Origin: Caulobacteraceae bacterium PMMR1
GTDB taxonomy: Bacteria > Pseudomonadota > Alphaproteobacteria > Caulobacterales > Caulobacteraceae
Direction of reading: 5' to 3'
DNA length: 64,000 bases
NCBI GenBank assembly: GCA_000733915.1
Contig: JPOM01000001.1
Location: 1,612,001 to 1,676,000, forward strand
Positions 33,523 to 46,275 of this stretch are shown in pieces. Position numbers and translations under genes: made by a program. The first letter of the stretch is position 1. Every line of letters starts with the position of its first letter. The notes beneath the pieces were generated by a model. That model saw nothing but the letters and a program-made list of their open reading frames with translations. It made no database searches and was not told the DNA's origin.

Positions 33523-33607
33523 TGGTGCGGGTGGTCGGGCTCGAACCGACACTCCTTGCGGAACCGGATTTTGAGTCCGGCGCGTCTACCAATTCCACCA
33601 CACCCGC
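33523..33607 (-). tRNA. tRNA-Leu (anticodon CAA)
   Basis: Minus strand folds as a class II tRNA. Acceptor stem GCGGGTG pairs with CACCCGC, anticodon stem GCCGGA/TCCGGT encloses loop CTCAAAA (anticodon CAA), a short variable arm follows, and the T arm is GTCGG-TTCGAGC-CCGAC. An encoded CCA lies at 33523-33525. The accessory IS/CRISPR block begins on its 5' side, so its 3' end is not split or duplicated. Confidence 0.95.
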
Positions 33608-33749
33608 GCCGAGCCGCTTGGCTCCCCTGCGCCTCCTAGCCCAATTTCAGCTGTTCCGCCAAGCCCACGCCGGGCGGCCGATCGTGTTTCGAGCCGTGGT
33701 GTAGCTTCGGCGGTGTGATCCCCGCGATCTCCGGCTGAGCCGGGTCTGG
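33608..33749. other. Short spacer between tRNA-Leu and IS256 remnant
   Basis: 142 bases with no gene I can support. It should contain the tRNA promoter on the minus strand and possibly the outer end of the IS256-family element, but I could not find a second inverted repeat to confirm an IS end. Confidence 0.4.
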
Positions 33750-33976
33750 TCAGGCGGCCATGGCGGGCAGGCGGACGAGGGCATTATCGCTGAGCGGTGC
33801 GAAGCTTTCCAGCGGCATGTAGCGGGAGCGCTGGACGGCCCATTCGTCGGATTGCTCGAGCAGGATGGCGCCGACGCGGCGGGCGAGCGCTGCCTCGTTT
33901 GGGAAGATGCCGACGACCTCGGTTCGCCGCTTGATCTCCCGGTTCACTGGCTCGATCGGGTTCACCGAGTGGATCT
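33750..33976 (-). pseudogene. IS256-family transposase, C-terminal remnant
   Basis: The last ~75 residues of an IS256-family (MULE-type) transposase: [40 protein letters not shown], and a terminal [20 protein letters not shown]. The N-terminal ~300+ residues with most of the DDE site are gone. The 5' break coincides with the IS3 element's left end at 33977; an apparent Met start (MKGGGQ) just upstream is encoded by the IS3 end, not by IS256. Confidence 0.85.
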
Positions 33977-33994
33977 TGACCTGACCCCCGCCTT

Positions 33995-34920
33995 TCATCC
34001 AGCGGCGACCAGAGACCGGCCGGTGTTGTCGCGCAGGAGCGCGAGTGAAGCAACGGGCGGGGTTAACCCCGCCCGTTGCTGTTCGAGTTCGGCGGCGAAG
34101 GCTGCCGGGGTGGCGTAACCGAGCGAGGAGTGCGGCCGCTCATTGTTGTAATCGTCGACCCAGCGGGCGAGGATCGAGCGGGCCTGACCGATAGTGAAAA
34201 ACAGCGTCTCGTTGAGCAGCTCGTCGCGCATGCGACCATTGAAGCTCTCGACGAACCCGTTCTGGGTCGGCTTGCCGGGCGCGATGTAATGCCACTCGAC
34301 GCCGGTATCTCCGGACCAGGCGAGCACCGCGTTCGAGGTCAGCTCGGTGCCGTTGTCGCTGACGATCATCTTCGGCCTGCCGCGTTCGGCGATCAGATCG
34401 GCCAGCTCCCGCACGACCCGCCGACCCGAGATCGAGGTATCGACCACCGCCCGGAGGCACTCGCGCATCACGTCGTCGACGATGTTGAGCACGCGGAACC
34501 GCCGGCCAGTGACGAGCTGGTCGTGCACGAAGTCTAGGCTCCAGCGCTGGTTGGGGAGCGCCAGCACCGGCGTGGCGCCCGCGCGCCAACGGCGCGCCTT
34601 CGCCCCTTCCTGCGCCTGACCGTCAGCCCCTCCTCACGGTAGAGCCGCTGGGTCTTCTTGCGGTTGATCGTGATGCCATCACGGCGGAGCAGGATGTGCA
34701 GCCGTCGATAGCCGAACCGCCGACGCTGCTGCGCCAGCTCGCACAGCCGCGACCGCAGGCCGCCATCATCTTCCCGGCACGACCGATACCGCATGCTCTT
34801 CCGGTCCGCCGAGATCACCCGGCACGCCCGCCGCTCGCTCATCCCGAACGCCGCCTGCAAATGCATGACGGCTTCGCGCTGGGCTGCGGCGGTCACCACT
34901 TTTTTGACAGCAGGTCTTTC
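33995..34920 (-). pseudogene. IS3 transposase OrfB (catalytic part), one-base frame break
   Basis: The rve/DDE integrase part. The upstream half (HLQAAFGMSERRACRVISADR to [21 protein letters not shown]) and the downstream half ([19 protein letters not shown] onward) are in different frames; one missing base near 34573 explains the break. The DDE residues are visible: Asp in WSLDFV, Asp in IVSDNGTE, Glu in FVESFNGRM. Normally made as an OrfAB fusion by -1 slippage from orfA. As sequenced, the element cannot make full transposase. Confidence 0.8.
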
Positions 34921-35159
34921 AACCTCGCATTGTCCAGCATGGCGTCCGCTAGCAGCCGCTTGAGCTTGCCGTTCTCGTCCTCCAACGCGCGCAGCCGCTT
35001 TGCCTCGGACACCTCCAGGCCGCCGTACTTGGCCTTCCACGCATAATAGGTCGCGCTCGACATGCCGTGCCTGCGGCATAGCTCCGTCACCACCGCGCCC
35101 GCCTCGGCTTCCTTCAGGATGCCGATGATCTGCTCTTCCGTGAACTGCTTCCGCTTCAT
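34893..35159 (-). CDS. IS3 transposase OrfA
   Basis: 88 residues: helix-turn-helix (FTEEQIIGILKEAEAGAVVT, SSATYYAWKAKYGG) then a leucine-zipper-like coiled coil (LRALEDENGKLKRLLADAML). The 3' end contains A-AAA-AAG at 34899-34906 on the minus strand, the slippery heptamer used by IS3 elements for -1 frameshifting into orfB. Confidence 0.88.
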   Translation of the reverse strand: MKRKQFTEEQIIGILKEAEAGAVVTELCRRHGMSSATYYAWKAKYGGLEVSEAKRLRALEDENGKLKRLLADAMLDNARLKDLLSKKW

Positions 35160-35223
35160 CTGTCCGTCCCATCAAGGGGCTGGTCTCTAGGTCCAGGTAA
35201 ATGAAGAAACGGGGGTCAGATCA

Positions 35224-38220
35224 CGGGAAGACCGTTGCCACGCCAGAACAGTTGGAGCTATTTGAAAGCAAGCTTCAATGAGGCCCGGGCTTAGAGCCCG
35301 GGAAGACTATGATATTCGCACCAGCCATCGCCGAACAATCCAGCTTCAATGAGGCCCGGGCTTAGAGCCCGGGAAGACCCTTGACGCCGTCCCTCCGTCG
35401 CCTGTTGAGCAAAGCCTGCTTCAATGAGGCCCGGGCTTAGAGCCCGGGAAGACCCGAGCACATCCTGCTTGGCTGGGAGGGCGTCACCGAGCTTCAATGA
35501 GGCCCGGGCTTAGAGCCCGGGAAGACAACGCGCCTATGACAAGATAGGCGGCACCTTCATTGAGCTTCAATGAGGCTCGGGCTTAGAGCCCGGGAAGACC
35601 GCTTGTAACTGTAACTTTGGGCGTTGCGCTCGGTGCTTCAATGAGGCCCGGGCTTAGAGCCCGGGAAGACTCTTCGATCACGGCGCGCCGCCGAGCGAAC
35701 GCACCAAAGCTTCAATGAGGCCCGGGCTTAGAGCCCGGGAAGACGGCGGCCGCGACCGACATGCCGTCGAACCCTGGGGCGCTTCAATGAGGCCCGGGCT
35801 TAGAGCCCGGGAAGACGACCCGCTCGGAGCCCCAATAGGGCGGGTCGAGGTAGCTTCAATGAGGCCCGGGCTTAGAGCCCGGGAAGACGCGGCGCACCCG
35901 ATCGGGGACACCGGCCAGACCTACTCGCTTCAATGAGGCCCGGGCTTAGAGCCCGGGAAGACCTGGTGCGAAGACCAGGGGAACGACCGCGTCATGAGCG
36001 CGCTTCAATGAGGCCCGGGCTTAGAGCCCGGGAAGACTTGTGGGCGCGGCGGCATGGTCGAGCCGCGCGCGAGCCGCGCTTCAATGAGGCCCGGGCTTAG
36101 AGCCCGGGAAGACCGTCGCCGACCACGAAGTGCGTCGCGCCGTCGGTGATCGTGCTTCAATGAGGCCCGGGCTTAGAGCCCGGGAAGACCGCCATCGACG
36201 TGCGCCGCGGCGACGAAATCCTGCGGCTTCAATGAGGCCCGGGCTTAGAGCCCGGGAAGACCTGACCTGGGGGAAGGGATACGCCGGGAAGTCCAGCATG
36301 CTTCAATGAGGCCCGGGCTTAGAGCCCGGGAAGACGCTTGCAGGATCGGGTCGCCGCGGCCGCCGGTCTCGGCCGGCTTCAATGAGGCCCGGGCTTAGAG
36401 CCCGGGAAGACGGCCCAGGATCGCGGCCGCCTGAACGAAGAAATCGCGCTTCAATGAGGCCCGGGCTTAGAGCCCGGGAAGACCAACACGTACGGAAACA
36501 TGACCGTCATCCATGCGCTGCTTCAATGAGGCCCGGGCTTAGAGCCCGGGAAGACGGCCAGCACCAGGGGCGCCGCGGCGGACGCCACGGCGCTTCAATG
36601 AGGCCCGGGCTTAGAGCCCGGGAAGACCCATCTGCCCGTCCTGCGACGGAACGGGCGAAGTCGCTTCAATGAGGCCCGGGCTTAGAGCCCGGGAAGACCA
36701 AGTCAGGCAGCGAGGACGCGAGGGTCGAAAGAAAGCTTCAATGAGGCCCGGGCTTAGAGCCCGGGAAGACCCCCAGGTCAGGGTCACGCGCCGGTGTCCG
36801 GGTTTCGCTTCAATGAGGCCCGGGCTTAGAGCCCGGGAAGACGAAACGGGCCGGTCCTCCCCGACGCTTCGGAACTTCGCTTCAATGAGGCCCGGGCTTA
36901 GAGCCCGGGAAGACCTTCCTGGAGCCCGCCGAAGTCAAGCGGGAGCACTTGCTTCAATGAGGCCCGGGCTTAGAGCCCGGGAAGACGGCGGCCGCGACCG
37001 ACATGCCGTCGAACCCTGGGGCGCTTCAATGAGGCCCGGGCTTAGAGCCCGGGAAGACGACCCGCTCGGAGCCCCAATAGGGCGGGTCGAGGTAGCTTCA
37101 ATGAGGCCCGGGCTTAGAGCCCGGGAAGACGCGGCGCACCCGATCGGGGACACCGGCCAGACCTACTCGCTTCAATGAGGCCCGGGCTTAGAGCCCGGGA
37201 AGACCTCGGAGTAACGCTGCACCTTGCCTTAGTTCAAGGGCTTCAATGAGGCCCGGGCTTAGAGCCCGGGAAGACTGCGTCTGCAGCGCCCTCGCTCAAC
37301 CTGCCCGTCCCGCTTCAATGAGGCCCGGGCTTAGAGCCCGGGAAGACGGGGGCCGGGGCTTACGACCTTGGTCATGAACAAGGACGTGCTTCAATGAGGC
37401 CCGGGCTTAGAGCCCGGGAAGACACGCGCAAGGAACTGCCGGGCTGTCGCATCACGGCGCTTCAATGAGGCCCGGGCTTAGAGCCCGGGAAGACCCAGCT
37501 TTCCCAGGTCTCTGGGTTCCTTCGGGAGCTGCTTCAATGAGGCCCGGGCTTAGAGCCCGGGAAGACTCGCCCACGCGTGGCGCGAGAGCTTGGAGGTCGA
37601 ATTGCTTCAATGAGGCCCGGGCTTAGAGCCCGGGAAGACCCCCAGCCTGTTCGACATCTTCGATGCGATCAACGCGGCTTCAATGAGGCCCGGGCTTAGA
37701 GCCCGGGAAGACCGCTTCGACCCCTATACGGGTCAACGTCGCTGCGACGCTTCAATGAGGCCCGGGCTTAGAGCCCGGGAAGACTAGGCGCGCACAGCCG
37801 CAAAGGGCTGGGGCTTGACAGCTTCAATGAGGCCCGGGCTTAGAGCCCGGGAAGACCGACCGGCCTGGTGACCGCCGCGCCCAAGGCCGGCGGGCTTCAA
37901 TGAGGCCCGGGCTTAGAGCCCGGGAAGACTGTGCTTCAGGGCGATCTGCTGCAGCAGGTCCTGGGCTTCAATGAGGCCCGGGCTTAGAGCCCGGGAAGAC
38001 CGGTTCCGGGCGAGGCGATCACCTGTTTCCTGCAGGTGCTTCAATGAGGCCCGGGCTTAGAGCCCGGGAAGACAGCGGTGCATCTATGGCGACTCCGCCG
38101 AGGGCTGCCGAGCTTCAATGAGGCCCGGGCTTAGAGCCCGGGAAGACCGCGTGGTAGACGTAGGCCCCGGCCGGACCGGCGACCGCTTCAATGAGGCCCG
38201 GGCTTAGAGCCCGGGAAGAC
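35224..38220 (-). CRISPR. CRISPR array: 41 full 36-bp repeats plus a truncated one, 41 spacers
   Basis: Full repeats start at 35272, 35343, 35418, 35491, 35564 and so on to the last at 38185-38220; spacers are 35-40 bp. On the plus strand each repeat begins GCTTCAATGAGG, has the palindrome CCCGGGCT-TAG-AGCCCGGG (8-bp stem), and ends GAAGAC. All copies I read are identical except the one at 35564 (C to T at 35577). On the minus strand the repeat ends ATTGAAGC, the conserved 3' form of type I repeats, so transcription is right to left from the leader beside cas2. Three spacers at 35745-35926 recur at 36987-37168, leaving about 38 unique. A 9-base repeat end (35224-35232) abuts the IS3 element. 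Confidence 0.98.
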
Positions 38221-38438
38221 CGCATCCCCACAAGCCTCTGGAGCCCAAGGATAAACGGGCCTGAGCGCGAGCGGGTCGCGACCTGGGATCGGCGTCATCC
38301 CAAGACACTTATCAAAACTACACGATTTCAAAGAACAAGTAAAGAGATTCAGCCTTTTATCGCGGTTCGAGCGGGTCTGGCGCGTCTGCCGTCGTCGGAC
38401 CGCTCGCGTTCGGACCGGCAATCACACGGGTCAGGGCC
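38221..38438 (-). promoter_or_regulatory. CRISPR leader region
   Basis: 218 bases between the newest repeat and the cas2 stop. The middle (about 38300-38365: ACTTATCAAAACTACACG, AAAGAACAAGTAAAGAGATT, TTTTAT) is clearly more AT-rich than the surroundings, as expected of a leader carrying the array promoter and integration signals. Orientation is supported by the cas2 position, by intact repeats at this end, and by a degenerate and a truncated repeat at the other end. No ORF of quality. Confidence 0.75.
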
Positions 38439-38729
38439 CTAAATCACTATAGCCTCGCGCCGGATCGGCTCGAAGCTCTTTCCGAAACTCTCCACGCGGG
38501 GATCGACCTGGTCGGCCGGGCCGAGGTCGAGAATCACCACGTGGTCCTCGCGGGCGTGGATCAGCGCCTCCAGCTTGGCCGCCATATCCGCCCGCCGCCG
38601 CGCCGACAGGCGGCACTGGAACACCGAGAGCTGCAGCCAACGGCCGTAGCCCTTCATGGTCTTGAACACCCGCCGCCAGCGCTTGGGCGAGGCCACGTCA
38701 TAGGCGACGATGTAGAGCCGCTCGCTCAT
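38439..38729 (-). CDS. cas2: CRISPR-associated endonuclease Cas2
   Basis: 96 residues, normal length. Forms the integration complex with Cas1 that inserts new spacers. Starts MSERLYIVAYDVASPKRWRR with the family beta-strand and Asp (YDV), followed by GRWLQLSVFQCRLSARRRADM. ATG 38729 overlaps the cas4-cas1 stop (ATGA); a longer frame would add 62 residues from inside cas1 and is rejected. Next to the leader, as usual for adaptation genes. Confidence 0.95.
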   Translation of the reverse strand: MSERLYIVAYDVASPKRWRRVFKTMKGYGRWLQLSVFQCRLSARRRADMAAKLEALIHAREDHVVILDLGPADQVDPRVESFGKSFEPIRREAIVI

Positions 38730-40435
38730 CGGGGCTCGTAGTGCAGATAGCGGTCGGTCTCGCCCAGGAAGTGCCGGGCGAGCAGGCGAGCCTGCACGTG
38801 CAGCAGGCGACGCAGGGATAGACGGTAGCCAAAGACCGGATGGGTGGTCTCCTGGTCCAGCCGCCGCTCGAAGGCGGCGATGAAGCGACGCCGGGCGTGG
38901 GGCTTCAGCGCGCAACCCTGGGCGGTGGAGAGGAAGTCATCCGGACCGATCTCGCCCTGGTTCAGGACAGTGATCACAGCGGAATCGGCGATGATCGGGC
39001 GATACGGCTCCATGAGGTCCAGCGCCAGCGCGGGCTTGCCGGGCCGCATGGCGTGATAGAGGCCGGCCCAAGGGTCCAGCCCGGCGATCTGCAGATCGGC
39101 GGTCAGCTGGCGGGTCAGTAGCGAATAGGCGAGCGACAGGCAGGCGTTCACAGGGTCGGCTGGCGGGCGGCGGTTGCGCCGCTCGAAGGCGAAGGCCGGC
39201 AGCCCGCGGGCGATCTCGGAAAAGAGGCTCGGCAGGGCGCGGAAATAGGCCGCCGCGGCGTCGCCCTCGAGCCCGAGCAGGCTGGCCGGGTCCGGCGCCG
39301 CCGGCGCCTTGGCCGCTAACCACTTCAGCCGGACCAGGACCGCCTCGCGGTCGGGCTCGGGACCGCGCCAGTTGCGGCGAAGCAGGGTGCGACTGTTGCG
39401 GATCTTGGCGGCCACCAGCCCGCGCGCGAACTCCAGGCGGAAGCGGTCGTCGCGGATGCGCGCGAACTGGGCCGCCCTCACCTGCGCGGAGCGCGGCCCC
39501 TCCGCCCCGGTCGAGCCAAGGAACCAGAAGCCGGACGACATCCAGGCGATCGGCCGTCCGCGGCGCACCAGCTCGTTCACCGCCGGGGTGGACAGCGAGA
39601 CGGGCCCGGCCAGGATCAGCTCGGAGACATCGTCGAGCGCGATCCGGCGCTCCCCCTCCCCTTCGCACGCGACAACCAGTTCCTCGCCCGACTTGCCGAC
39701 GCGTGCGCCGGGCGTCTGGACATAGAGCGGCAGGGCCGTATCGGACGGCGGCGGCAGGGGTCGCGGCGGCGCGCCGTCACGGAACCAGTTCACCTCGTCG
39801 GGAAGGCAGATAGGCAGGAGCGAACAGCGGGGGCACTTGGGGCTGTTCTCCAGAGGCGGCGGCGGCCGGCCCGATGCGGCGGTCAGGCGCAATTCGTTGG
39901 CCGCCTTGAGGCTTGCGGCCCTGAGATCGGCGTCGAAGGCGACCGGCACGCGATCCCGGCTCTCGGCGAACCACAAAAACCCGTCGTTCACCTGGTAGCC
40001 ATTGTCCTCCAGGATCAGCGCCTGCACGCAGAGCTGCACCCGCTCGGGGTCGTAGGCGCCCATCTTCACGTGGGGCCGCTTGCCTTTCTTGTACTCGATG
40101 GGGGTGAGACGGCCGTCCTCGCCCTCCACCACGTCGATCTTGGCGATCAGACCCAGACGCGCGGAGGACAGCTCCACCGAGCGCGCGACGAAGGGCGCCG
40201 CCTCCTCCACCGCGTCCGGGGGCGGCAGGCGGCCGGGGCTGCGGTCCACCCTCAGGTGGGTTCGGCGCCCCTCGGCGGTGTCGCCGCTCTCCGCCCACTG
40301 TCCCTCCACCCATTCGAGATAGGCCAGCCGCGGGCAATAGACCCACTCGTTGACCATGCGCGCGGGAACGAGCGGCTCATCCTCCGCTGCGGCGGGCGCT
40401 GGCAAGGCGAGCTCGAATTGAGCGCCGGACGCCAT
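38726..40435 (-). CDS. cas4-cas1: Cas4-Cas1 fusion protein (CRISPR adaptation)
   Basis: 569 residues from ATG 40435, preceded by GGGGGA. Residues ~20-215 are Cas4, a RecB-like nuclease that trims prespacers and selects the PAM: iron-sulfur cysteines C34, C201, C204, C210; nuclease residues H60, D101, E114 and K116 (IEYKKGK). Residues ~230-569 are Cas1 integrase, with SLSTPAVNELVRRGRPIAW, the catalytic Glu in GLEGDAAAAYFRAL, His in GLYHAMRPGKPALALDLMEP and a following acidic site. Such fusions are known from type I-G (formerly I-U) and type V-B systems; the repeat's ATTGAAGC end favours type I-G. No effector gene follows or precedes it. Confidence 0.95.
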   Translation of the reverse strand: MASGAQFELALPAPAAAEDEPLVPARMVNEWVYCPRLAYLEWVEGQWAESGDTAEGRRTHLRVDRSPGRLPPPDAVEEAAPFVARSVELSSARLGLIAKIDVVEGEDGRLTPIEYKKGKRPHVKMGAYDPERVQLCVQALILEDNGYQVNDGFLWFAESRDRVPVAFDADLRAASLKAANELRLTAASGRPPPPLENSPKCPRCSLLPICLPDEVNWFRDGAPPRPLPPPSDTALPLYVQTPGARVGKSGEELVVACEGEGERRIALDDVSELILAGPVSLSTPAVNELVRRGRPIAWMSSGFWFLGSTGAEGPRSAQVRAAQFARIRDDRFRLEFARGLVAAKIRNSRTLLRRNWRGPEPDREAVLVRLKWLAAKAPAAPDPASLLGLEGDAAAAYFRALPSLFSEIARGLPAFAFERRNRRPPADPVNACLSLAYSLLTRQLTADLQIAGLDPWAGLYHAMRPGKPALALDLMEPYRPIIADSAVITVLNQGEIGPDDFLSTAQGCALKPHARRRFIAAFERRLDQETTHPVFGYRLSLRRLLHVQARLLARHFLGETDRYLHYEPR

Positions 40436-40967
40436 GACGAAAATCCCCCGAAACTGCAGCCTATAGGAGACCCCGGACGCGGCAGACGCAATCCCCTTCA
40501 ACTTCAGCGCACGCTGTCCACGCGGGCTTGGCGGCGATCAGCGAGGCCTTGTGACTGTAGTGTTCGAACCGGCTGGCCCGAACCGCGCGAACTTGTGCAG
40601 ACGGAGTACGATGCAGATTTCGCGATCTGTATGGCCGCTGACGAGTTGCGACTTGTACAGAGAGGAATGGCGGCGTCCGCAAACCCTGTCCGCCTGAAAG
40701 AGCGGCGTTAGGTTGGCAGGTCATCGACGCAACGGGCCGTATGGGGAGCGAAGGTTTGGCGAGCCCTCTCACCGTTACCGGTTCGGAGGACAGGCCCTCT
40801 GCTGAGCCGCTCTCGTCAGGGCGGCGGCATTCGCCCCCGAGTCCTGCCCTCTGAGCCCTGACCCTCAGGCCTTGAGCCTCGCCCTTGACGCACGGGTCCG
40901 CAGGGTCCCTCATCCCTGGGCGGCCGATCGGCTTGCCGTCTGCAGGACACAGCGTCAGGGGGCGTCA
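40436..40967. other. Gene-poor gap between cas4-cas1 and bciA
   Basis: 532 bases without a convincing gene. A complete type I-G locus would place csb2, csb1, csx17 or cas3 homologues here, but none is recognisable in any frame. A plus-strand frame ending at 40711 (AADELRLVQRGMAASANPVR) and a minus-strand frame ending at 40461 are open but match nothing I know. The gap must hold the cas promoter (minus strand) and the bciA promoter (plus strand). Confidence 0.5.
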
Positions 40968-42106: not shown

Positions 42107-42721
42107 ATGAAGACGATCGCAGCCCTTGCGGCAGGCCTGCTCGCGGCGCTCAGCCTCGCCGGATGCGGCAAGAGCGGCGCCGGCGGGTCGGCCGCCATGA
42201 CCGACGCGGACATGAGCCTCGGCAATCCGAACGCCAAGGTCACCATGGTCGAATATGCTTCGATCACCTGCCCGCACTGCGGAACGTGGGAGAAGGAGGT
42301 CTGGCCGGCGTTCAAAGCCAAGTACGTGGACACCGGCAAGGTGAAGTACGTCTTCCGCGAGTTCCTGATCCACCCGGAGGTCGACGCCGCCGGCTATCTG
42401 CTCGCCCGCTGCGCCGGCAAGGACAAGTATTTCCCAACCATCCAGGCGATCTTCGCCGCCCAGCCCGAGCTGTTCCAGACCGGCGACGCCCACGGCATCT
42501 TGCTGCGCATCGCCAAGGCGAACGGCATGAGCGAGGCGCAATTCAACACCTGCGTGACGAACGAACAGGCGCTGAAGGCCCTCGCCGCGCGCCAGCAGAC
42601 CTACGAGCAGACCGACAAGGTCAACAGCACGCCGACATTCTTCGTCAACGGCAAGGAGGTCGCCAACGGCGAGGCGCCCCTCGCCACCCTCGACGCGGCC
42701 ATCCAGCCGCTGCTGAAGTAA
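42107..42721 (+). CDS. DsbA-like thioredoxin-fold lipoprotein
   Basis: 204 residues from ATG 42107 ([20 protein letters not shown]), a lipoprotein signal with lipobox LAGC. The mature domain has the redox site [11 protein letters not shown] (CPHC as in DsbA) and the cis-Pro loop [12 protein letters not shown]. Likely a periplasmic thiol oxidase or isomerase anchored in a membrane. Lies 24 bases upstream of smc, an arrangement common in Caulobacterales-type genomes. Confidence 0.9.
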
Positions 42722-42744
42722 GGCGCGGCTCTAGCCGCAGGGCC

Positions 42745-45700
42745 GTGCAGTTCCAGAAGCTCAAGCTCACGGGCTTCAAGTCCTTCGTCGAGCCGACGGA
42801 GTTCCGGATCGAGCCCGGCCTCACCGGCGTCGTGGGGCCGAACGGCTGCGGCAAGTCCAACCTGCTGGAGGCGCTCCGCTGGGTCATGGGCGCCAACTCC
42901 GCCAAGGCCATGCGGGCGGAGGGCATGGACGACGTCATCTTCGGCGGCACGAGCGGGCGCCCGGCCCGCAACCACGCCGAGGTGCAGCTCGTCATCGACA
43001 ACAGCGCCCGTCGCGCCCCGCCGCAGTTCAATGCGCACGACGTGCTGGAGGTCAGCCGCCGCATCGACCGCGGGGCCGGCTCGCTCTACCGGATCAACGG
43101 GGCGGAGGCGCGCGCCCGGGACGTGCAGCTGCTGTTCGCCGACGCCTCCACGGGGGCGAACTCTCCGGCACTGGTGCGGCAGGGACAGATCTCCGAGCTG
43201 ATCGCAGCCAAGCCGTCCAACCGGCGGCGCATTCTCGAAGAGGCGGCCGGCGTCTCGGGCCTGCACACCCGCCGTCACGATGCGGACCTGCGCCTGAAAG
43301 CGGCGGAGGCGAACCTCGCGCGGCTGGACGACGTCGTGGGCGAGCTCGAGACCGCCCTGAACCGGCTAAAGCGCGAGGCCCGCCAGGCGGAGCGCTACAA
43401 GCGCCTGTCCGCCGAAATCCGGGGGCTGCAAGGCGCCTCGCTGCACGCCCGCTGGACGGAGGCGATCGCCGCGAAGACGCGGGCGGAAGGCGAGCTCGCC
43501 GCGGCGTTGGCCGCCGTTGAGACCGCCGCCCGCGAGGCGGCGCGGGCCGAGGCGGAGGCGCTCACTGCGGCTAAGGCGCTAAACCCGCTCCGGGAGGAGG
43601 CCATGGTCGCGGCCGCGGTGCTGCAGCGTGCGATCCTGGAGAAGGACAGGCTGGAGCGTGACGAGACCGAGGCCTCGGCCGCGTTGCAGCGCGCCCGGAC
43701 CGAGGCGCAGCGGATCGCGGCGGACCGCGCGCGTGAAGGCGAACTGGCCGCCGACGCCGCCGAGAGCCGCAGCCGCCTGGAGCGCGACCTGGCCGAGCTG
43801 GAGCGCCAGATCGCCGCGGCGCCCGAGCGGACGCCGGAGCTGCAGGCGGCGATCGCGGCGGCGGAGCTCGCCCGCGCCGAGGCCGACCGCGCGGTGGAGA
43901 TGCTCGCCGCCGAGGCCGCCGCCGACGCCGCCGCGCGCCAGGCCTCCCGAGGCGCCCTCGACAGCGCCGAAGCCGCCGCGCGCGCCGCCGCCCAGCGCCG
44001 TCAGGACGCCGAGGCGCGCCTCGCCCGCACCCGGCGCGCGCTTGACCAGGCCCGGGCCGACCGCGCCCGGATCGCCCTCGCCGATCCCGCCGCCGCCCTC
44101 GCCCTGGCGGCGCTGGCCGAAGCCGAGGCGCGCCTGGCCGAGGCGAAGCGCGCGCTGGCAGAGGCCGAGCAGGCCCGCCAGTCCGCCCAGGCGCAAGAGA
44201 TTGAAACCCGCGACGCCGCCCGCAGCTTGGCCGACCGCCTCGCCTCCCTGAAAGCCGAGGCGCAGGGCTTGGCCGCGCTGTTGAAGCCCGCCCAGGGCGG
44301 CAAGGCCTGGCCGCCGGTGCTGGACCAGGTCCAGGTCGAGGCCGGGTACGAGAAGGCGCTGGCGGCGGCCTTGGGCGAGGACCTCAGCGCGGCCCTCGAT
44401 GCCCGCGCGCCTACCCACTGGTCCGCCCTCGACCGCGCCGGGGCGAGCCTCGCCTGGCCGGAGGGCTGCCAGCCGCTCGCCGCGCACGTGCAGGCCCCCG
44501 CAGCGCTGGCGCATCGCCTGGCCCTTGTCGCGGTGGTCGAGGCCGGCGAGGGGGCGCGTCTGGCCGCCCGCCTGCCAGTCGGGGCGCGGCTGGTGTCCAA
44601 GGCCGGCGACCTCTGGCGCTGGGACGGGTTCGTGGCCCGGGCCGATGCGCCCCGCCCGGCGGCCCAGCGCCTGGTGCAGCGCAACCGCGTGAGCGCCCTG
44701 GAGACCGAGATGCGGGCCCTCGCGCCTGACGCCGAGGCCGCCGCCGCCGCCCACCGCCGCGCCGCGGACCAGGTGCGCGCCGCCGAGGACGCCTTGCGCC
44801 TCGCCCGGCGGGCGCCGGAGCCGGCCGAGCGCGCCGTCGCGGAAGCCCGCGCCGGGGTCGAGCGCCATGCCCGCGAGGCGGCGCGCCGGGAGGCCCAGGC
44901 CCAGGCGCTCGACGAGACCATCAGCCGCTTCGAGGTCGAGGCCGAGGAGGCGCAGGTCCTGGCCGAGGGCGCGATGCGCGAGGCCGAGGCCGCCGCGGCC
45001 GGCGTCGCGGAGCTGCGCGCCCGCATCGCCGAAGGACCCGGCCGCGACTTCGGCCCCGCCCTTGCCGAGGCCCGCCGCCGCGCGGGACAGGCCCGCGAGG
45101 CCGAGGCCGCGGCGCGCGCCGCCCTCGAGGCGGAACGCCGCGCCCGCGAAGGCCGCGCTCGTCGCCGCGAGAGCCTGACGCGGGAGCTTGCCGACTGGCG
45201 CCGCCGCGCCGAGGCCGCCGCCCGTCGCGAGGCCGAGCTCGAGGCGGAGGCGGCGCGCGCCGCCGCCGCGGTCGCCGCCGCCGAGGCGGGCCCCGCTGCG
45301 CTCAGCGCGCGCCGGACGCGCCTGCTGGACGAGCTGGGACTAGCCGAGGCCCGCCAGGCCAGGGCCAGCGATGCCGTCCAGGCCGCCGAGGCGGCGCTGC
45401 AGGCCGCCGACCGCTCCAGTCGCGCCGCAGCCCAGGCCGCCGGCGACGCCCGCGAGGCTCGCGCTGCGGCCGAGGCGCGCCTGGAGGCGGCGCGCGAGAA
45501 GGCGGAGGCCGCCGCCGAGCAGATCCGCCAGACCCTGCGCCTGGAGCCCGAGGCGCTCGGCCGCCGCCTCGCCGAGGAGGCCATCGCCGCCCCGCCCGAC
45601 CCGGACGCGCTGGACGCGCACCTGGCGCGGCTGGAGCGGGAGCGGGACCAGCTCGGCGCGGTGAACCTGCGGGCCGAAGAGGAGGCGCAGGAGCACGCCA

Positions 45701-46275
45701 GGCGGCTGGAGAGCCTGCTGGGCGAGCGCGCCGACCTGACCGGGGCCATCGCCAAGCTGCGCGCCGGGATTTCGGAGCTGAACGAGGAAGGGCGCGACCG
45801 CCTGCTGGCCGCCTTCACCCAGATCAACGAGAGCTTCCAGGTGCTCTTCCAGACGCTCTTCGCGGGCGGCCAGGCGGAGCTGCGGCTGGTCGAATCCGAC
45901 GACCCCCTGGAAGCCGGCCTGGAGATCTACGCCTGCCCGCCGGGAAAGCGGCTGTCGGTCATGAGCCTGATGTCCGGCGGCGAGCAGGCCCTGACCGCCA
46001 CCGCTTTGATCTTCGCGGTGTTCCTGGCCAATCCCGCCCCCGTGTGCGTGCTGGACGAGGTGGACGCGCCCCTCGACGACGCCAACGTCGACCGCTTCTG
46101 CCGCATGCTGGACGATATGCGCACGCGCACCCAGACGCGCTTCATCGCGATTACGCACAACCCGGTGACCATGTCGCGCATGGACCGCCTCTATGGGGTC
46201 ACCATGGCGGAGCGGGGCGTGTCGCAGCTGGTGTCGGTCGACCTGCGCCAGGCCGAGGCCCTCGCGGCGGAATGA
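42745..46275 (+). CDS. smc: Chromosome segregation protein SMC
   Basis: 1,176 residues from GTG 42745 ([20 protein letters not shown]); the frame is open far upstream but only this start fits the family. Walker [10 protein letters not shown] near residue 32; two long Ala/Glu/Arg-rich coiled-coil arms (~165-500 and ~650-1000) flanking a hinge (about 510-640, including [17 protein letters not shown]); C-terminal signature [14 protein letters not shown] and Walker [14 protein letters not shown]. The very high GC of the coiled coils gives long open frames on other strands that are not genes. Confidence 0.96.

Follow-up and report, generated by a model that had tools for sequence, protein, structure and literature searches.

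In the long-term Escherichia coli lines, all 14 examined IS150-associated deletions followed an earlier insertion of the insertion sequence (IS) at the same place and were not accompanied by target-site duplications (TSDs), according to the passages of PMC11708052 that deal with this element. Insertion of ISs into loci of clustered regularly interspaced short palindromic repeats (CRISPR) is likewise mentioned as already observed in the corresponding parts of PMC10359306. Type I-G systems with a Cas4/1 fusion and Cas2 are treated in PMC10274657 (PDB 7mi4), and loci that recruit CRISPR RNAs (crRNAs) in trans have been described for other subtypes, for example III-G, in sections of PMC12669027. 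Here, we describe a 64,000-nucleotide stretch of Caulobacteraceae bacterium PMMR1 (the window, C1:1612001-1676000 of a single 2,673,433-bp contig; assembly 99.9% complete), in which an IS3-family element lies between the remnant of an IS256-family element and the end of a CRISPR array that belongs to a type I-G adaptation module.

The junction resembles the IS150 adjacent deletions, as those passages of PMC11708052 present them, in that an IS3-family element without a target duplication is flanked by DNA of two origins and the neighboring DNA is gone. The earlier insertion in the E. coli lines was seen in ancestors, whereas here only the rearranged state is seen and the putative deletion touches a CRISPR array. 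As in the IS inactivation covered in PMC10359306, a CRISPR-Cas locus has been damaged by insertion sequences; however, the insertions reported in those parts lie in cas genes and have TSDs, whereas in the window it is the old end of the array that has been truncated, with the adaptation genes intact. With the type I-G systems of PMC10274657, as far as its account of the fusion goes, the locus shares Cas4-Cas1 and Cas2. Its 36-bp repeat ends with ATTGAAGC, the same as in the type I-G arrays of relatives, but its module lacks the adjoining effector genes that most relatives have upstream. Among the top-ranked matches listed in a literature search on IS damage to arrays, no title or abstract opening described this very case. 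The junction adds a new case to a process already known, an ordinary kind of genome damage.

An IS3-family element between an IS256 remnant and a CRISPR array

The IS3-family element is 1,247 bp long and has both inverted repeats, TGACCTGACCCCCG (33977-33990) and CGGGGGTCAGATCA (35210-35223). Its boundaries could be fixed because the ends of four plasmid-borne relatives (85.5-87.7% identity), TGACGTGACC...GGTCACGTCA, match its termini; this confirmed the right end at 35223 that had been given in a preliminary description of the locus and corrected the left end to 33977. The inverted ends begin with TG and finish with CA, as is typical of the IS3 family, and the reading frames OrfA and OrfB contain HTH_21 and rve domains (Pfam). 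Near position 34573, orfB is one base short relative to all five aligned relatives, which breaks the transposase frame, so the element is probably dead, as judged from this alignment. A second IS3 trace, a 90-bp left end at C1:1116871, shows that the genome once had another copy. A family-wide search matched 31 of 298 genomes, including the window's own, and was of no use as a guide to the element ends since the other matches were just 71-74% alike. Inside the IS3 element, beyond orfB when read along the strand that transposase and array share, there is a perfect 30-nt palindrome (34050-34079), and a similar palindrome is also present in four IS3 relatives.

At its left end, the element adjoins an internal part of an IS256 transposase gene, as had been proposed, and comparison with other IS256 copies of the genome bears this out: where these continue with GTGGATCTTCACCCGATGG, the window has GTGGATCT and then TGACCTGACC. 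This places the break inside the transposase gene, near base 890 of 1,195, and the T at 33977 is common to both elements. The window thus contains only the last 297 of the 1,195 bp, encoding the C-terminal end of a Mutator-type transposase (PF00872). This piece differs from four other copies at 4-6 of 298 sites and those four differ among themselves at 0-3, which suggests that the piece is probably an older copy. Two internally deleted IS256 derivatives (L094 5885-6498 and L093 7485-7967) have a common internal joint (approximately bases 290 and 873) and resemble a non-autonomous form that has moved; one of them lacks the 3' end.

Directly after 35223, in agreement with the preliminary description, the stub CGGGAAGAC (35224-35232) corresponds to the final nine bases of the 36-bp repeat on the forward strand and is followed by a 39-nt spacer and the first full repeat. 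The stub is in register with the array, whose spacers are 35-40 nt long; assuming equal base use, hand arithmetic gives a chance of ~4e-6 for a 9-base match at the required register, or ~2e-5 when spacers of 35-40 nt are allowed. Of the 41 repeats in the array (35272-38220), 40 are identical and one has a single change, and the repeat hairpin has a predicted energy of -15.7 kcal/mol (z -2.4). In the crRNA sense, the repeat reads GTCTTCC...CATTGAAGC, and the repeats in the arrays of relatives likewise read ...CATTGAAGC, those arrays also coming after cas4-cas1. Judged from the repeat orientation in the crRNA sense and from where cas2 lies, the leader is on the right; the IS3 element would therefore be located at the old, leader-distal end of the array, and the stub is the 5' part, in the crRNA sense, of the leader-distal repeat.

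No convincing target was found for the spacers: a comparison with phages gave one weak match (E 0.07), the array as a query matched five plasmid records (query-level matches only), and the two most recent spacers, shortened to 25 and 23 bases, had no exact match in viral contigs. An identical 256-nt block occurs twice in the array (35709-35964 and 36951-37206, spacers nos. 7-9 and 24-26), and this duplicated three-spacer block looks like a product of unequal crossing-over between repeats.

The left-to-right order of the features is tRNA-Leu, IS256 remnant, IS3 element, repeat stub, spacer and array, presumed leader, cas2g and cas4-cas1 (Table 1). Further along the window, an open reading frame (ORF) of 1,370 aa (42163-46275) has SMC/RecF-type domains and also matches mad3 of a defense set (1.6e-53); it may be just an SMC protein.

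Table 1. Features at the IS3-array junction and in its surroundings (window positions)
Feature	Position	Strand	Basis
tRNA-Leu (CAA), left neighbor	33523..33607	-	ARAGORN
IS256-family 3' remnant, last 297 bp, broken within transposase gene	33680..33976	-	Pfam Transposase_mut; ~98% identity to other genome copies
IS3-family element, both inverted repeats; sole full-length copy found in genome	33977..35223	-	
IS3 orfB with rve integrase core, frame broken near 34573	33995..34896	-	alignment with 5 relatives
IS3 orfA, 88 aa	34893..35159	-	translation
CRISPR repeat stub, 9 bases, against IS3 right end	35224..35232	-	
Oldest remaining spacer, 39 nt	35233..35271	-	
CRISPR array, 41 repeats of 36 bp, spacers 35-40 nt	35272..38220	-	
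Presumed leader	38221..38438	-	cas2 side and repeat orientation; weak leader-like match in L054
cas2g ORF	38439..38915	-	PADLOC Cas2g 5.6e-30
cas4-cas1 fusion, type I-G	38726..40501	-	PADLOC Cas1g 5.3e-178; whole-length match to PDB 7mi4

Origin of the junction

A rearrangement anchored at the IS3 element is supported because both of its ends are present while its flanks have two origins. In line with the preliminary description, no target duplication of 3-4 bp joins these flanks (ATCT versus CGGG), so the locus combines both IS ends, flanks of different origin and the lack of a duplication, as expected for an IS-adjacent deletion. In such a scheme, IS3 would have inserted into an IS256 copy, or into or at the leader-distal CRISPR repeat, and a later deletion, reaching from one end of IS3 to the other site, would have left the IS256 interior, IS3 and the repeat stub in a row. 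IS3 insertion followed by deletion at IS3 is the best explanation of the junction and a likely one, because the rest of the genome yielded neither the lost half-repeat nor a matching IS256 piece. All 41 genome matches of the repeat, or of its 23-base front part, with no more than 3 mismatches were within this array. Among the 40 best of 272 candidates scored, no other IS256 piece was broken at base 890, the fragments breaking at other places; the missing IS256 front part, for which the preliminary description had suggested a search beside CRISPR repeats elsewhere in the genome, was not found. We infer that the partner pieces were deleted, and adjacent deletion by the IS3 transposase appears to be the likeliest route, with about an even chance of being the right one.

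Several observations weigh against this explanation. The ancestral arrangement is unseen, there being no known strain that lacks the deletion. The missing TSD, which had been taken as a diagnostic mark, is not specific to deletion: it is also missing in five of the six IS3 copies of relatives in which both ends were read (the sixth has a 4-bp GGCC), and target duplications were seen by eye in none of the four two-ended IS256 copies of this genome. One of the six is an interrupted copy with ends on either side of another insertion (L150, L157), and the W06 copy, in which the pattern found the right end only, was left out of the count. With orfB now out of frame, the element would have acted before the frame change or with help in trans. 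A short stray piece was possibly missed, as the IS searches of the genome scored 40 first-look candidates each, of 117, 107 and 272. A rival reading concerns the stub: in 9 of the 17 arrays of relatives the last repeat is, by our reading, degenerate, and several keep its 5' part (L046, L070, L066). The stub could accordingly be a natural truncated last repeat with IS3 inserted just past the array, in which case only non-CRISPR DNA and part of IS256 would have been lost. This is quite possible, somewhat short of an even chance, but the stub matches the repeat perfectly and stops exactly at IS3, and the script used found no clear degenerate last repeat in the other 8 arrays.

The same junction without a duplication would also result from homologous recombination of two IS3 copies in the same direction, one in IS256 and one in the array, by which the intervening segment is removed and a single hybrid is left. 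The 90-bp remnant attests that a further IS3 copy once existed, but this route demands two insertions in one region and there is no second full copy today; we rank it next after adjacent deletion but consider it rather unlikely. An inversion or translocation at IS3, with the other product later lost or unrecognized, is less likely still; two-ended IS256 copies without duplications would fit much shuffling in the genome, but the reciprocal joint was not found, as the searches gave no other repeats and, among the IS256 pieces scored, none with a break at base 890. An exchange between copies of IS256 was rejected, since none of the outer flanks, compared crosswise by eye, pairs with the window flank, and the breakpoints differ. 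The multicopy nature of IS256 might favor an assembly chimera; however, the genome is in one contig and 99.9% complete, IS3 is single-copy at full length, and the IS256 piece, given its differences from the four compared copies, is not simply one of them, which leaves an assembly error very improbable.

Probable loss of DNA from the old end of the array

The preliminary description had proposed an insertion in a repeat followed by adjacent deletion or IS-IS recombination, with the loss of older spacers and possibly of cas genes. The rearrangement at IS3 stands, but the case for insertion in an internal repeat is weakened: since the stub could be the natural last repeat of the array, the number of lost spacers may be zero. 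The presence of cas genes in the lost part is unlikely, as judged from the relatives. Among 61 loci encoding a Cas4-Cas1 relative, 21 had an array followed by 2 kb or more of further sequence, and tblastn detected a type I-G gene beyond the array in none of these; effector genes were located upstream of cas4-cas1 in 41 of the 46 loci with at least 8 kb upstream (on the same strand in 35 of the 41). Neither the uptake of spacers nor transcription of the array would be expected to rely on the lost end, because the leader, cas2 and cas4-cas1 are all on the other side and untouched, and no sign of harm to either process was noticed.

A comparison of the interval between tRNA-Leu and bciA in close relatives, which had been suggested as a check, was not informative, as the 60 family genomes sampled contained three other bciA homologues and their neighborhood was not shared. 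In these three stretches (11-16 kb each), no tRNA was found, and of 19 window ORFs only bciA matched, apart from a weak 61-residue match in L104.

The adaptation module and the distant effector set

The locus is a type I-G adaptation module and array without adjoining effector genes. Its Cas4-Cas1 fusion (PADLOC Cas1g 5.3e-178 over 45-591) is the sole match in the genome at E <= 0.001 and aligns with PDB 7mi4 over residues 42-588; in this alignment, the cysteines and motifs around the Cas4 and Cas1 active sites are kept. A Cas2 of the same subtype (PADLOC Cas2g 5.6e-30) is encoded beside it, and the true start of cas2g is probably further in, because the Cas2 domain comprises only residues 64-158 of the ORF. 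The genes cas3, cas8g, cas7g and cas5/6g are missing from the locus, and tblastn gave no effector match in the window.

The only complete type I-G set found, cas3g-cas8g-cas7g-cas56g, is located ~1 Mb away at C1:2640610-2648256 (L090 4611-12257), with no adaptation module nearby. No array was found in C1:2618000-2673433, although the search for arrays of a different repeat did not take in the whole genome; the one periodic stretch in this region is made up of 63- and 48-bp tandem repeats (L170 15132-17786, C1:2633131-2635785) and is probably a gene of a repetitive protein. A partial phage-type integrase lies directly upstream of the effector set, and the transposase gene directly downstream, which we presume to be of IS5 type, resembles a DDE transposase gene near a relic of csb1 (cas7g).

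This relic, with stops and frame changes, is at 1.075 Mb (L089 12853-14054, C1:1074852-1076053), where a full-length IS256 copy truncates it at the 3' end. The pieces of the relic share 80-86% identity with csb1 of Caulobacter sp. S45 (L031), in which the order is csb1, a csb2-like gene, cas3, a 329-aa protein, cas4-cas1, a cas2-sized gene and the array (csb2 and cas2 named by position). In this locus, which has the closest csb1, the gene is thus upstream of cas4-cas1, on the opposite side from the IS256 remnant, and the idea that IS256 joined the relic straight to the array of the window is not supported. A cas3g split in two ORFs (C1:2172757-2175055, L162 12258-14556) is located between two IS256 copies; the ORF just before it matches the helicase families SngC and BrxHI (L162 9911-14556, C1:2170410-2175055 overall).

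The likely partner of the module was approached with a Cas4-Cas1 tree of 52 rows, built from tblastn hits of 450 aa or more (the 61 loci and the window, less 10 loci that were dropped). The window protein is sister to that of Hyphomonadaceae bacterium PRO2 (L028; support 96/92) and belongs to a group of 11; none of the loci in this group has a label for an effector from the branch of the distant set, the labels resting on our own bit-score cut-offs. From this grouping, we conclude with moderate confidence that the original effector partner was probably of the kind represented by the csb1 relic. The use of such cut-offs counts against this, as do two findings: the labels change often on the tree (28 changes versus 31.9 in shuffles, with as low a number in 6 of 200), and a dropped locus (L074), with Cas4-Cas1 pieces 62-78% identical to those of the window, has the effector branch of the distant set.

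PRO2 is similar to the window in having a long array, no effector match within 10 kb upstream of Cas4-Cas1 and an effector set (828, 786, 323 and 543 aa) on another contig, beside which no array was found in the 20-kb stretch examined. It differs in its array of ~129 repeats, which reaches the edge of the stretch examined. The split between module and effector may therefore be common to both genomes, or it may have arisen twice, because their effector proteins are only ~33% alike, no closer than to those of other relatives.

Implications

The distant effector may use the array of the window in trans. We tentatively propose a two-locus type I-G system, while regarding it as doubtful, in which the module and array of the window feed an effector ~1 Mb away, of a different I-G branch from the original one; the original effector would have decayed amid IS256, IS3 and IS5-type activity, as exemplified by the csb1 relic cut by IS256, and the module would survive by lending its crRNAs in trans. 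The junction itself illustrates that insertion sequences can trim the old end of CRISPR memory and spare what is required for acquiring new memory. With its dispersed I-G pieces, the genome lends itself to testing whether one adaptation module, with its array, serves a distant effector of another branch; if this is true, type I-G modules would be mixable across loci.

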